Positions 60,447-64,000 of a DNA stretch of 64,000 bases are shown here, one piece after another. Each line of letters begins with the position of its first letter. The stretch's first letter is position 1. A program made the translations under genes and the position numbers. Source of the stretch: Leisingera sp. M658. GTDB lineage: Bacteria > Pseudomonadota > Alphaproteobacteria > Rhodobacterales > Rhodobacteraceae. The notes below the pieces were generated by a model. That model had not been told where the DNA came from. It saw only the letters and a program-made list of their open reading frames with translations, and ran no database searches. The stretch spans positions 2,806,501 through 2,870,500 of the forward strand of contig NZ_CP083546.1 of NCBI RefSeq assembly GCF_025144145.1, read 5' to 3'.

Positions 60447-61496
60447 TCAGGCTGCCGGGCCCCGTGCCGCTGCTTGCGGCTGGGCAGCCTCGCTGATGCC
60501 GCATGCGTCTTCTTTCTCCATGCCTTCTCGGTAAAAAAAATGCTGCGCCCGTCCGGCGCGCTTGGCAGCATACAGCGCCATGTCCGCTTGGTTCAGCAGT
60601 TGATGAGCATCCGGAACTTTTTGCCAGGTGGACAGCGTGGTGCCGGCACTGGCCGAGATCCGGCACGTCAAGGCGCCAAACGGAACCGGCTCCTCCAGCC
60701 GCTGGATCAGCCGTTTGGCAATAGCAGCCAGCCTGGCCGTGTCCAGAACACCTTCGAGAATCATAACAAATTCATCGCCGCCGACACGGGCAACGGTATC
60801 GGACTGGCGGGTGCATTCCACCATGATCCGCGCCGCCTGCTGCAGCACCGCATCACCAGCCGCGTGGCCCATCGTGTCATTGACCTGCTTGAAATAGTCC
60901 AGGTCCAAATGCATCAGCGCAAATTCGCGGCCGCCGTTGATCAGCCGGCCCAGCACATGATCCATCGCCCGGCGGTTCTTCAACCCGGTCAGCGTGTCGG
61001 TAAAGGCTTGTTCCTCGGCTGCGATCTTTGCCCCTTGCAACCGCGTGTTCAACTGGCGCGACGCCTCCATCGCGGCCGATTTTGCCTCCACCAGATAGAG
61101 CATCTCGATGGTCAGATCCGTTGGCGAAAAATCAGCGCTGGTCAGATCATAATCGCGTACGGCCTCCAGCACGGAGATCCCAAAGGACAGATTGATGAAA
61201 GCGCCCTGACCGCCAGGCAGCGGCGTGCAAACGCCTTTCAGGCCGGTTTGCGGCCCGTCCCGGAACTGCAGATGCAGCTTGCTCCCGGAGGTCCTGACCA
61301 GATCCTCTATCGACCGCACCGAACGCGGCCGCGACAGGTCGAACACCCGGAAGAACCGCCGCCCCTCCCAGTTCAGTTGCGGGCGCAATTTTTTCAGCGT
61401 CGGCCCGGCAGAGGTGATCCGCCCCTTGGCATCGGCAATCACGTACATCGGGCAGATCACGCCTGCCATCTGTGTCAGCTGCTCGAGAGTCATCAT
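60447..61496 (-). CDS. diguanylate cyclase with HNOBA-type N-terminal domain
   Basis: 349-residue protein. Residues ~10-135 resemble the HNOBA (heme-NO-binding-associated) domain of soluble guanylate cyclase: PMYVIADAKGRITSAGPTLKK, then FRVFDLSRPRS, LKGVCTPLPGG and DLTSADFSPTDLTIEMLYL. A helical linker (EAKSAAMEASRQLNTRL) leads to the GGDEF domain: active site VARVGGDEFVMIL and inhibitory I-site RQSD five residues before it. It should make cyclic di-GMP. Its start overlaps the stop of the H-NOX-like gene by four bases, so the sensor and cyclase are translationally coupled. Short disordered C-terminus (SEAAQPQAAARGPAA). Confidence 0.9.
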   Translation of the reverse strand: MMTLEQLTQMAGVICPMYVIADAKGRITSAGPTLKKLRPQLNWEGRRFFRVFDLSRPRSVRSIEDLVRTSGSKLHLQFRDGPQTGLKGVCTPLPGGQGAFINLSFGISVLEAVRDYDLTSADFSPTDLTIEMLYLVEAKSAAMEASRQLNTRLQGAKIAAEEQAFTDTLTGLKNRRAMDHVLGRLINGGREFALMHLDLDYFKQVNDTMGHAAGDAVLQQAARIMVECTRQSDTVARVGGDEFVMILEGVLDTARLAAIAKRLIQRLEEPVPFGALTCRISASAGTTLSTWQKVPDAHQLLNQADMALYAAKRAGRAQHFFYREGMEKEDACGISEAAQPQAAARGPAA

Positions 61497-62080
61497 AAGG
61501 AATGCGCCCCCAGATCAAATTCACGCCCGGCGGCAAACTCGGTTTCGATAAGGGTGATCGCAATCACCTCTGCCCCGTCCTGACTGCCGCTGTGATCCAG
61601 GAAAACAAGATCACCGTAATCATCGGCCATTGCCCGCAGAACCCCCATCAGAACATAGGCATAGCCAGGCAGCCCAGGCTGGCAAACCAGCTCGAACTGT
61701 TCCGGTGCCTGTTCCAGAAGCTCCAGCCCCGGCAGGTGCAAATCCGACACTGCCAGCCGGGCCCGGTCCGGCAAGTCGTCCAGCGAATGCAAAAATTCAA
61801 CGTAATTCACCCCGCCGAAACGCAGCAGCCGCCGCAGTGCCTCCACCTGCGGATTGGACACCAGAAACGTGCCCATATCCTCCAGCATTTCCGGCAGCGG
61901 GCGCGCCAGAACCTTTTCCATCGCCGTCAGCATCTGGCTCGATTGCTCTTCAGAATAGAACAGCATCGCCTCGAACTCGGTAAACCCAAGCCCTGCCTCT
62001 TCCATAACCTCTTCCCAGCGGTCGGCCCCGTAGGTACTGGTCACAAAAGCCTGAATCGCCCTATTGATCAGACCGTGCAT
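61493..62080 (-). CDS. H-NOX-like protein lacking the heme-ligand histidine
   Basis: 195-residue heme-NO/oxygen-binding (HNOB) family protein. The N-terminus MHGLINRAIQAFVTSTYG and the segment LRRLLRFGGVNYVEFLHSLDD align without gaps with soluble guanylate cyclase beta. At the heme-ligating His of that segment (LDALHDHL in sGC) it has LDDLPDRA, so Pro104. The Y-x-S-x-R heme-propionate motif is C133-x-P135-x-L137. It therefore probably does not bind heme the normal way. The start at 62080 gives the usual N-terminus; the frame is open for 9 more codons. Overlaps the GGDEF gene by four bases. Confidence 0.85.
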   Translation of the reverse strand: MHGLINRAIQAFVTSTYGADRWEEVMEEAGLGFTEFEAMLFYSEEQSSQMLTAMEKVLARPLPEMLEDMGTFLVSNPQVEALRRLLRFGGVNYVEFLHSLDDLPDRARLAVSDLHLPGLELLEQAPEQFELVCQPGLPGYAYVLMGVLRAMADDYGDLVFLDHSGSQDGAEVIAITLIETEFAAGREFDLGAHSL

Positions 62081-62521
62081 ACAATGGCCCCTCTTTGCCT
62101 TTGCCACAGTCTTGACGCCTGCAGGTTAAGAAAGAACCAACAAAGCGAACTTGTACGATAAGCCGCGCGCGTTTCTTCTGACATTATCAACTCTTGCACG
62201 AACCCTGCACCCCCGGCAGCAGACGCCGGCCATATGCGCAGCGCGGCCATTGCCCGGCAGCCGGCCCTGCGGCCAGCCACATCTGAAACCAACTTCAAAT
62301 TTGCACGCACCTGCACTCCCGCATTGGACCGTTCAGGCGCCTTTCCCTACTGGACCGGCTGGCGCCAGGAGGCAAGCCTGCTGCTGTGCATCCGCGCCGA
62401 ACCGGCGGCTTCCAACCTGCCGCCGGCGCGCTGTGTTCGAAACCTGCAGCCCGCGCATAAACGCGCATAAAAAAGCGGAGGGGCTGCCTCCGCTTTTCCT
62501 GCTGGTGATAGGCCCGATGGC
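62081..62521. other. 440-base intergenic region upstream of the H-NOX-like gene
   Basis: Lies between the H-NOX-like gene and the mttB-like gene, both on the minus strand. It holds the mttB terminator and presumably the promoter of the H-NOX/GGDEF pair. No gene recognised. Confidence 0.5.
62468..62497 (-). terminator. intrinsic terminator of the mttB-like gene
   Basis: Perfect stem AAAAGCGGAGG / CCTCCGCTTTT, loop of five, continuing into a T-run on the minus strand. Strong. Confidence 0.85.
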
Positions 62522-64000
62522 TCAGAAATCTGTCGGTGCGCCGCCCTCGGCCTTGCGGCGGGTGACGAAATCCGCAAGTTCGTCGCGGATCGCTGCATCC
62601 ATCGGCGGTTCCTCGAAATCGGCGATGATCTCCTTGAACAGCTTGTGGGCGCGCTCAGCAGTCCAGGTCGCACCGGCCGCCTCCCAGGCCTCATAGTTGC
62701 GCCAGTCGCTCAGGAACGGCTGATAGAAGGCCTCGGAATAGCGGTCCTGGGTGTGCTGGATACCGAAGAAATGGCCGTCATTGCCGACCTCCCTGATCGC
62801 ATCCAGGGCAATCTCTTCCGGGCCGGTGGCCGAAATCTGCGGCTGCATATAGCGTTCGATCTGCTGCAGGATCTCGCAGTCCATGATGAATTTTTCAGGC
62901 GAGGCAATCAGCCCGCCCTCCAGCCAGCCGGCCGCGTGATAGACCATATTGGTGCCCGACTGCACCGCCGCCCACAGCGAATTCGAGGTCTCCCAGATTG
63001 CCTGCCCGTCCGGCACATTGGCGGCACAAACCCCTGAGGACCGCATCGGCAAGCCGTAAAACCGTGCCATCTGCCCGGTCATCTGGGTTGAGCGCATGTA
63101 TTCCGGGGTGCCGAAGGCCGGCGCGCCCGATTTCATGTCCACATTCGAGGTAAAGGTGCCGATCACGCAGGGCGTGCCGGGGCGCACGTACTGGAACAGC
63201 GCAATGGCACAGAGGCTCTCGGCAATCGACTGCGCCACCGCACCGGCCATGGTCACCGGCGCCATTGCACCTGCCAGCGTGAAGGGCGACACCACGATGG
63301 CCTGGCCGCGCCGCGCCAGCCGCAGGCAGCCGTCGATCATCGGAAAGTCGTGCTTCAGCGGCGAGGTGGAGTTGATGTTGGTGTACATATGCGGCTTGGC
63401 ATCGAACTCCTCATGGCTGAGCCCGCCGGCAATCCGCACCATCTCCATCACGTCTTCGACCCGTTCCTTGCCAAGGGAGTAGGCATGCATCGCTTTGTCG
63501 GTGAGCGTGAGCTTGTCGTAGAGCACATCCAGATGCCGGGTTGAGGCATGCAGGTCCACCGGCTCCACCGGATAGCCGCCGGCAAAGTGGATGCAGTTGA
63601 AATACTGGGTCAGTTTCAGCAGGTTACGGCATTGCTCGCGGTTGCCGGCCACCTTTTTGTTCAGCTCCATATCCCAGTAGTTCGGCGGCGAAGACACATT
63701 GCCGAACAGGATGTGGTTGCCGCCCAGCGGAATGGTCCGGTCCGGGTTGCGCGGCGTGATCGAGAATTCGCGGGGCGCCTTGCCCACCATCTCCATCACA
63801 AAATCCCTGTCCATCTTGACCAGTTCGCCCTCGACCTTGACGCCGGCCTGTTTGAAGATCTCCAGCGCTTCCGGGTTCAGGAAAACCACGCCGATCTCTT
63901 CCAGGATACGCATGGCGCCCTCGTGGATCGCCATCACGCCTTCCTCGCTCAATGGCTCGGTCGGCCGGTCGATGTTGACCGGGATCTGCCAGGGCATCTG
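62522..64000 (-). CDS. MttB-family (trimethylamine methyltransferase-like) corrinoid methyltransferase, non-pyrrolysine, 5' end outside window
   Basis: At least 492 residues of a protein from the MttB superfamily; the frame is still open at base 64000, so the ATG at 63997 may be internal. Conserved pieces: EGAMRILEEIGV near the N-terminus, GNVSSPPNYWDM, the central AGAMAPVTMAGAVAQSIAE barrel strand, and SGTNMVYHAAGWLEGGL. There is no in-frame amber codon, so this is a non-pyrrolysine member like the glycine betaine methyltransferase MtgB, transferring a methyl group from a quaternary amine to a corrinoid protein. Substrate not determined. Confidence 0.88.
   Translation of the reverse strand, partial: QMPWQIPVNIDRPTEPLSEEGVMAIHEGAMRILEEIGVVFLNPEALEIFKQAGVKVEGELVKMDRDFVMEMVGKAPREFSITPRNPDRTIPLGGNHILFGNVSSPPNYWDMELNKKVAGNREQCRNLLKLTQYFNCIHFAGGYPVEPVDLHASTRHLDVLYDKLTLTDKAMHAYSLGKERVEDVMEMVRIAGGLSHEEFDAKPHMYTNINSTSPLKHDFPMIDGCLRLARRGQAIVVSPFTLAGAMAPVTMAGAVAQSIAESLCAIALFQYVRPGTPCVIGTFTSNVDMKSGAPAFGTPEYMRSTQMTGQMARFYGLPMRSSGVCAANVPDGQAIWETSNSLWAAVQSGTNMVYHAAGWLEGGLIASPEKFIMDCEILQQIERYMQPQISATGPEEIALDAIREVGNDGHFFGIQHTQDRYSEAFYQPFLSDWRNYEAWEAAGATWTAERAHKLFKEIIADFEEPPMDAAIRDELADFVTRRKAEGGAPTDF

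Follow-up and report, generated by a model that had tools for sequence, protein, structure and literature searches.

A heme-motif-less H-NOX-like gene paired with a diguanylate cyclase gene in Leisingera and other Rhodobacteraceae

Described H-NOX systems and the gene of the window

The proximal heme ligand of H-NOX proteins is a His residue, and the YxSxR motif anchors the heme propionates. Nostoc H-NOX (Alr2278) and the beta1 subunit of soluble guanylate cyclase (sGC) bind heme. In sGC, the H-NOX, PAS, coiled-coil and cyclase parts cooperate. The sGC alpha subunit carries a heme-free H-NOX domain that works with the PAS and cyclase parts and partners the heme-bearing H-NOX of the beta subunit.

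Several related systems have been described. Lee-Lopez and Yukl described in 2022 a Group 5 of H-NOX proteins in which less than 10% carry the His and most carry Pro (PMC8738867). This group has no conserved Cys, retains the hinge glycines, and is centred on a GGDEF-linked Paracoccus protein; GGDEF and MTTB are named as neighbour families in a figure legend that pools all groups (PMC8738867). The heme-free H-NOX of Vibrio cholerae is a precedent for heme-free H-NOX signalling (PMC8738867). In Paracoccus denitrificans, an hnoX gene overlapping a GGDEF gene and missing the His was described in 2017; biofilm was reduced in the hnoX mutant, the authors suggested that H-NOX inhibits the cyclase DgcA with NO as the signal, and the abstract calls this H-NOX a heme protein (PMC5588039). 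A later study placed c-di-GMP below detection in P. denitrificans (PMC12582929). The H-NOX of Dinoroseobacter shibae was reported to inhibit Dgc1 when NO-bound (PMC7232146, PMC8846402), and a review lists it as a heme NO sensor (PMC8846402).

The window analysed here is a stretch of 64,000 nucleotides of Leisingera sp. M658. It contains an hnoX-like gene, P0001 (61493..62080, minus strand; ATG at 62080, stop codon at 61493-61495), which encodes a protein of 195 aa with an HNOB domain without the heme motifs, as indicated by the open reading frame, translation, Pfam and fold match. The protein is 98% identical to its counterpart in Leisingera aquimarina. Its Pfam HNOB match (E 1.3e-21, 77.6 bits; cut-off 25.5 bits) places it in the HNOB family. 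NCBIfam gave no family name to P0001 or to its D. shibae relative (L128).

A profile of 89 members of the class formed by P0001 and its relatives was aligned with the solved Nostoc H-NOX (4iae, 2o09) at E ~1e-29 with one inserted residue. In this alignment, Pro104 (codon 61769..61771, minus strand) stands at the His of LDNLH, and C133, P135 and L137 of residues 133-137 (C-Q-P-G-L; 61670..61684, minus strand) stand at the YxSxR of HYQSTR; translation and census (below) agree on both sites. Neither the proximal His nor YxSxR, the two marks of a heme-binding H-NOX, was found in P0001 (Pro104; C-x-P-x-L). The class shares the fold and a near-gapless alignment with Nostoc H-NOX and sGC beta1, whereas the His is kept in both of these and YxSxR is kept in Nostoc. 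The sequence-only reading had pointed to LDDLPDRA with Pro104 at 61769-61771 and to C133, P135 and L137; all are present, and the strand, unstated there, is the minus strand.

The structure of P0001 was modelled from the window protein and 31 of the 40 close loci (pLDDT 78.6, pTM 0.75; the five models span 59.5-78.6). The top PDB match of the model in Foldseek was Nostoc H-NOX 4iae_A (E 1.7e-13, TM 0.77/0.82). The model proposed earlier as a check recovered the Nostoc H-NOX fold, and together with the Pfam score it bears out the assignment as H-NOX-like. Residues 81-90 and 101-110 were modelled weakly (block means 56 and 55). Since the best fold match is a drug-bound Nostoc H-NOX, the pocket may persist in P0001.

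The locus agrees with Group 5 at several points. The window protein has Pro104, the class has Pro in 204/282 and His in 22/282 members (7.8%, in agreement with <10%), no Cys is conserved (C133 in 151/282), and G70 and G146 are kept, which probably correspond to the hinge glycines of the Group 5 description. The Group 5 section is silent on YxSxR, conserved residues, co-occurrence, HNOBA partners and an upstream box (PMC8738867). The pair Pden_3719/Pden_3720 (DgcA), compared by its description, is likewise a His-less H-NOX whose gene overlaps a GGDEF gene (PMC5588039). Therefore, the loss of the His, whose novelty was implied at first, is not new; it was printed in 2017 (PMC5588039) and in 2022 (PMC8738867). 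In a literature search that left most subscription papers outside, no description was found of YxSxR loss or a conserved signature for the class, of the near-obligate pairing and the CtrA-like box described below, or of the rare-His status of the D. shibae H-NOX; none of five H-NOX terms occurs in PMC9756655.

Distribution of the heme-motif loss in Rhodobacteraceae

The sample consisted of 394 Rhodobacteraceae genomes. An HNOB match was present in 296 and a match to P0001 in 288; three of the latter were counted as heme-type, G004 (locus L004) and G294 (L003) by sequence and G388 by a strong HNOB and weak P0001 score, which left 285 genomes with the class. The census comprised 289 class loci, from which seven identical sequences were dropped to give 282 distinct members from 281 genomes. 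Fragments in G030, G061, G220 and G344 lie outside this census, as do loci L033-L072, which come from another collection. Three class members have an internal stop or a split frame (L083 in G271, L326 in G176, L330 in G036).

At residue 104, the 282 members carry Pro (204), His (22), Gln (13), Arg (12), Asn (8), Ala (6), Ser (5), Gly (4), Glu (3) or other residues (5). The complete YxSxR motif was found in none of them: Tyr133 occurs once, Ser135 in 53 and Arg137 in 11 members, and position 133 is Cys in 151. Pro104 is present in 39 of the 40 close sequences that span the site, window included, and L045 has Ser there; L072 does not span it. The loss is therefore no chance event or sequencing error, and the breadth of Pro104 among relatives, raised earlier as a point to check, extends widely through the Rhodobacteraceae. 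When the 192 positions were ranked by conservation, position 104 came 95th, 133 came 113th, 135 came 172nd and 137 came 180th. The variety at 104 would resemble drift, not a new conserved role for Pro. P0001 also has a counterpart of about 90% identity (L043) on a contig whose title names Nocardioides marinus; this genome is probably mislabelled.

In a wider sample, 289 genomes drawn from the taxonomic class of the window's organism, eight had a profile match; the heme-less type was seen only in three of these, all belonging to its family. Loci L367-L370 retain the heme motifs, and L371 would by score (32.5 bits) be of a more distant type.

An alternative holds that P0001 still binds heme and senses NO through another ligand (His2, His142 or Tyr142, His98, Cys133) or through a weakly held heme. 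His2 is present in 250/282 members compared with Tyr or Gln in the five heme-type relatives that have a letter there, and residue 142 is His in 119/282. None of the candidate ligands is invariant, however, and Cys133 reaches only 151/282; eight of the 204 members with Pro104 lack His at each of positions 2, 98 and 142 (a gap at 2 being counted as none), and the complete YxSxR is missing in all 282. His98 (codon 61787..61789, minus strand) had been named as the only near alternative. It was rejected as a substitute ligand because it stands opposite Glu in the Nostoc alignment, is His in only 160/282 members, and is replaced by Tyr at three of the close loci (L058, L060, L065).

The literature lends this alternative some weight, since reports on D. 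shibae describe its H-NOX as an NO sensor (PMC8846402, PMC7232146) and the Paracoccus authors keep the NO model (PMC5588039). Locus L128 (genome G035) belongs to the D. shibae genome, as its pDSHI01 DNA matched at 100%, and it presumably is Dshi_2815, given that this species has a single H-NOX gene (PMC6473078). L128 is of the same class with the same type of partner (Dshi_2815/Dgc1) and shares E67, D68, R83, R84, R87, D153-G156, R186 and F188 with P0001. It differs in having His104 and Arg137 and in being reported as NO-acting (PMC7232146, PMC8846402). D. shibae is thus not representative of the Pro members and says nothing for them, and what the consulted papers offer as direct evidence that the class senses NO concerns a protein with His104, a residue carried by 22 members (PMC7232146, PMC8846402). 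We consider it unlikely that P0001 is still a heme-based NO sensor.

A thiol or zinc redox sensor is another alternative; heme-free H-NOX signalling has its precedent in V. cholerae (PMC8738867), and Cys133 occupies the Tyr place of YxSxR. P0001 has a single Cys and not the three-Cys zinc motif of the V. cholerae type. Cys redox sensing was rejected because of this single Cys and the occurrence of C133 in only 151/282 members; a sensor of this kind is very improbable.

Conserved residues and the partner diguanylate cyclase

Several charged residues are almost invariant in the class. In RRLLRFGG (residues 83-90; 61811..61834, minus strand), R83 is present in 279, R84 in 281 and R87 in all 282 members. 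E67-D68 (61877..61882, minus strand) is kept in 275/282 and 272/282, and D153-D154-Y155-G156 (61613..61624, minus strand) in 278, 269, 276 and 280 of 282, respectively. W22, G70, R87, P117 and G146 are invariant in the members with a letter there (G70 280/282, G146 281/282), and F188 and R186 are present in 277/282 and 257/282.

The six heme-type relatives showed a different pattern. All six have His104, Tyr133, Ser135, Arg137 and Trp73. R83 and D68 occur in none of them, R84 and E67 in one each and R87 in two; D154 and Y155 are likewise absent, while D153 is present in three and G156 in four. Position 73 is Leu in 270/282 class members versus Trp in the heme-type relatives; we take this Trp73 to sit in the distal pocket and positions 73 and 143 to be pocket positions. 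By sequence, the best markers of the class are R83, D68, D154, Y155 and Leu73, and R87 and D153 are not class-specific because they are present in 2/6 and 3/6 heme-type relatives.

These residues bear on the proposal that the signal is a small molecule, such as a nucleotide, c-di-GMP in feedback or a hydrophobic metabolite, bound in the vacated pocket or at a new site on the surface. The near-invariance of R83/R84/R87, E67/D68 and D153-G156 is consistent with such a site, as are the 0/6 counts of R83, D68, D154 and Y155 in heme-type relatives and the hydrophobic residues that remain at 73 and 143. On the other hand, R87 and D153 are shared with heme-type relatives, the charged residues may instead form salt bridges or an interface with the cyclase, and residues 81-90 and 101-110 lie in the poorly modelled blocks (means 56 and 55). 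A bound small molecule is possible, though we do not regard it as probable; the proposal overlaps the preferred reading given below and differs from it by naming a ligand.

The dN/dS values were 0.04-0.09 in ten comparisons, five of which had dS >1, near saturation. The P0001 class is under strong purifying selection. The earlier statement that the gene is intact, coupled to a cyclase and maintained agrees with these values, and the adjoining cyclase proved to be a GGDEF diguanylate cyclase. A decaying gene without function would account for the loss of the known cofactor motifs and for the three broken members (L083, L326, L330). Such decay was rejected on the dN/dS values; selection and distribution contradict it, as do the invariant residues and the near-universal pairing with an intact cyclase, and its probability is practically negligible.

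The partner gene, P0002 (60447..61496, minus strand), encodes a diguanylate cyclase of 349 aa with the order HNOBA, long helix, GGDEF, as identified from the open reading frame, Pfam, motifs and model. The two genes overlap in ATGA at 61493-61496, where the hnoX stop lies over the P0002 start. The N-terminal HNOBA match of P0002 is right at the Pfam cut-off (23.4 bits). GGDEF is found at residue 239 with RxxD ahead, motifs that predict an active cyclase. In the model, an alpha/beta N-domain reaches to about residue 107 and a long helix spans 125-187 before GGDEF (mean pLDDT 75.1, pTM 0.48; residues 108-160 below pLDDT 50).

The pairing is nearly complete. A cyclase lies directly downstream on the same strand in 128/129 class loci, and the exception (L130) stops at the contig end. 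Among the 394 genomes, the P0002 N-domain occurs in 284 and together with an H-NOX match in 282. The six genomes with an H-NOX match and no N-domain are two outside the class (G004, G388), two with fragments (G030, G220) and two with the match at a contig end (G287, G390); the two with an N-domain and no H-NOX match are G028 and G111, the latter at a contig start. This near-complete co-occurrence indicates that the hnoX-cyclase pair is kept and lost together. Of 267 class partners, 265 have GGDEF, 262 of these with RxxD; the two that lack GGDEF are short pieces.

The sequence-only reading compared P0001 with the heme-free sGC alpha subunit. A heme-free fold is indeed the best reading, and the strict alpha parallel did not hold. 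Unlike the situation of sGC alpha, the window genome has a single HNOB match above the cut-off and so no second HNOB protein; a strict alpha/beta pair was rejected for this reason. Its partner must therefore be of another kind, and the cyclase is the simplest candidate.

P0001 is best explained as an H-NOX-fold protein that works without heme as a regulatory subunit of the adjoining diguanylate cyclase; we assign this reading a probability of about 0.55. The motif loss, the retained partner and the selection described above lead to this reading, together with a presumed docking on HNOBA. P0001 most likely descends from an ordinary heme H-NOX that stood next to an HNOBA-bearing signalling protein. 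By analogy with soluble guanylate cyclase, H-NOX would dock on the N-terminal HNOBA (PAS-like) domain of the cyclase, and its conformation would restrain c-di-GMP synthesis. After loss of the heme ligands, the input may be one other than heme-bound NO, such as a ligand, the redox state or the amount of H-NOX alone, and would act via the now nearly invariant residues.

The suggestion that the His-less H-NOX of P. denitrificans inhibits DgcA supports a heme-free subunit (PMC5588039). Against it, NO remains the signal in the model of the Paracoccus authors (PMC5588039), D. shibae, a member of the class, is listed as having a heme NO sensor (PMC8846402), and His recurs in scattered branches of the tree (18 changes). 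The possible persistence of a pocket, the five near-saturated dS values and the c-di-GMP level below detection in P. denitrificans (PMC12582929) also weigh against it. If the class is heme-free, this concerns many Rhodobacteraceae genes annotated as NO sensors (285/394 sampled genomes carry the class) and provides a naturally occurring example of a cofactor-based sensor retained as a heme-free regulator.

Origin of the pair, upstream box and gene neighbourhood

All six heme-type relatives adjoin other signalling genes. Five of their partners were scanned: one is a GGDEF-EAL protein (L003, same family as the window) and four are histidine kinases. Pfam HNOBA was found in 4/5, barely above the cut-off at L003 and L004, and was not found at L007; BLAST matched the P0002 N-domain to the partners at L007 and L370. 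The class probably lost its heme motifs from a pair of this kind, given that the heme-type relatives too adjoin signalling genes, most of which carry HNOBA. A heme H-NOX with an HNOBA partner likely lost its motifs near the base of the class while the partner was kept. L003 (G294), with a heme-type H-NOX beside an HNOBA-GGDEF-EAL protein, is possibly a picture of the ancestral pair.

The tree was built from 280 rows (277 class members, three outgroup sequences) with columns 98, 104, 133, 135 and 137 excluded and without L362, L363, L083, L330 and L326. Unordered parsimony placed Pro near the class root with 18 changes between His and non-His, and a loss-only history needs 46 losses. With weak support on several backbone branches and an outgroup of three sequences, the root state is not firm. 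His in scattered branches would reflect drift or repeated recovery of heme binding.

A CtrA-like box, TTGG-N7-TTAA, lies upstream of hnoX (62126..62140, minus strand), and its TTAA begins 49 bp upstream of the start codon. Read from 62140 to 62126, the box is TTGGTTCTTTCTTAA. TT-N9-TTAA was found 35-70 bp upstream in 61/78 distinct class loci and in 0-1/78 in each of six other bins; Rhodobacteraceae heme-type H-NOX genes had it in 4/24. Plain TTAA was present in 11/24 heme-type genes versus 73/78 class loci. The perfect CtrA site TTAA-N7-TTAA was found in 1/184 upstream regions and in 0/78 at the box position; only the degenerate form is common.

The CtrA motif of D. shibae is TTAAC-N5-GTTAAC (PMC7232146), and hnox and dgc1 of this species are induced in a quorum-sensing programme involving CtrA (PMC6473078). 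In R. capsulatus, rcc02629 was described as CtrA-regulated (PMC9143464). The box may be a CtrA site or could be a promoter element, and hnoX expression is probably under CtrA control.

A more specific version of the preferred reading joins these points. In one bacterial family, a heme NO sensor would have become a heme-free cyclase subunit in which the input of the heme pocket gave way to a new site around R83/R84/R87 and D153-D154-Y155 that recognises a different signal, perhaps c-di-GMP or some other anionic metabolite; the gene would be controlled by CtrA, and His carriers such as D. shibae would be recoveries. We hold this combination to be doubtful and offer it tentatively. If it were true, the NO paradigm for the class would rest on an exception.

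The upstream neighbour of hnoX is an MTTB-superfamily methyltransferase gene (62522..63997, minus strand; Pfam MTTB E 3.2e-220). Such a gene lies within about 2 kb of hnoX in 23/58 loci and is frequent, not universal. The flagellar FlhA family was present in 238/285 genomes with the class versus 71/109 without it (Fisher p 0.00018, kinship ignored). This association is weak, so the pair is not strictly tied to motility.
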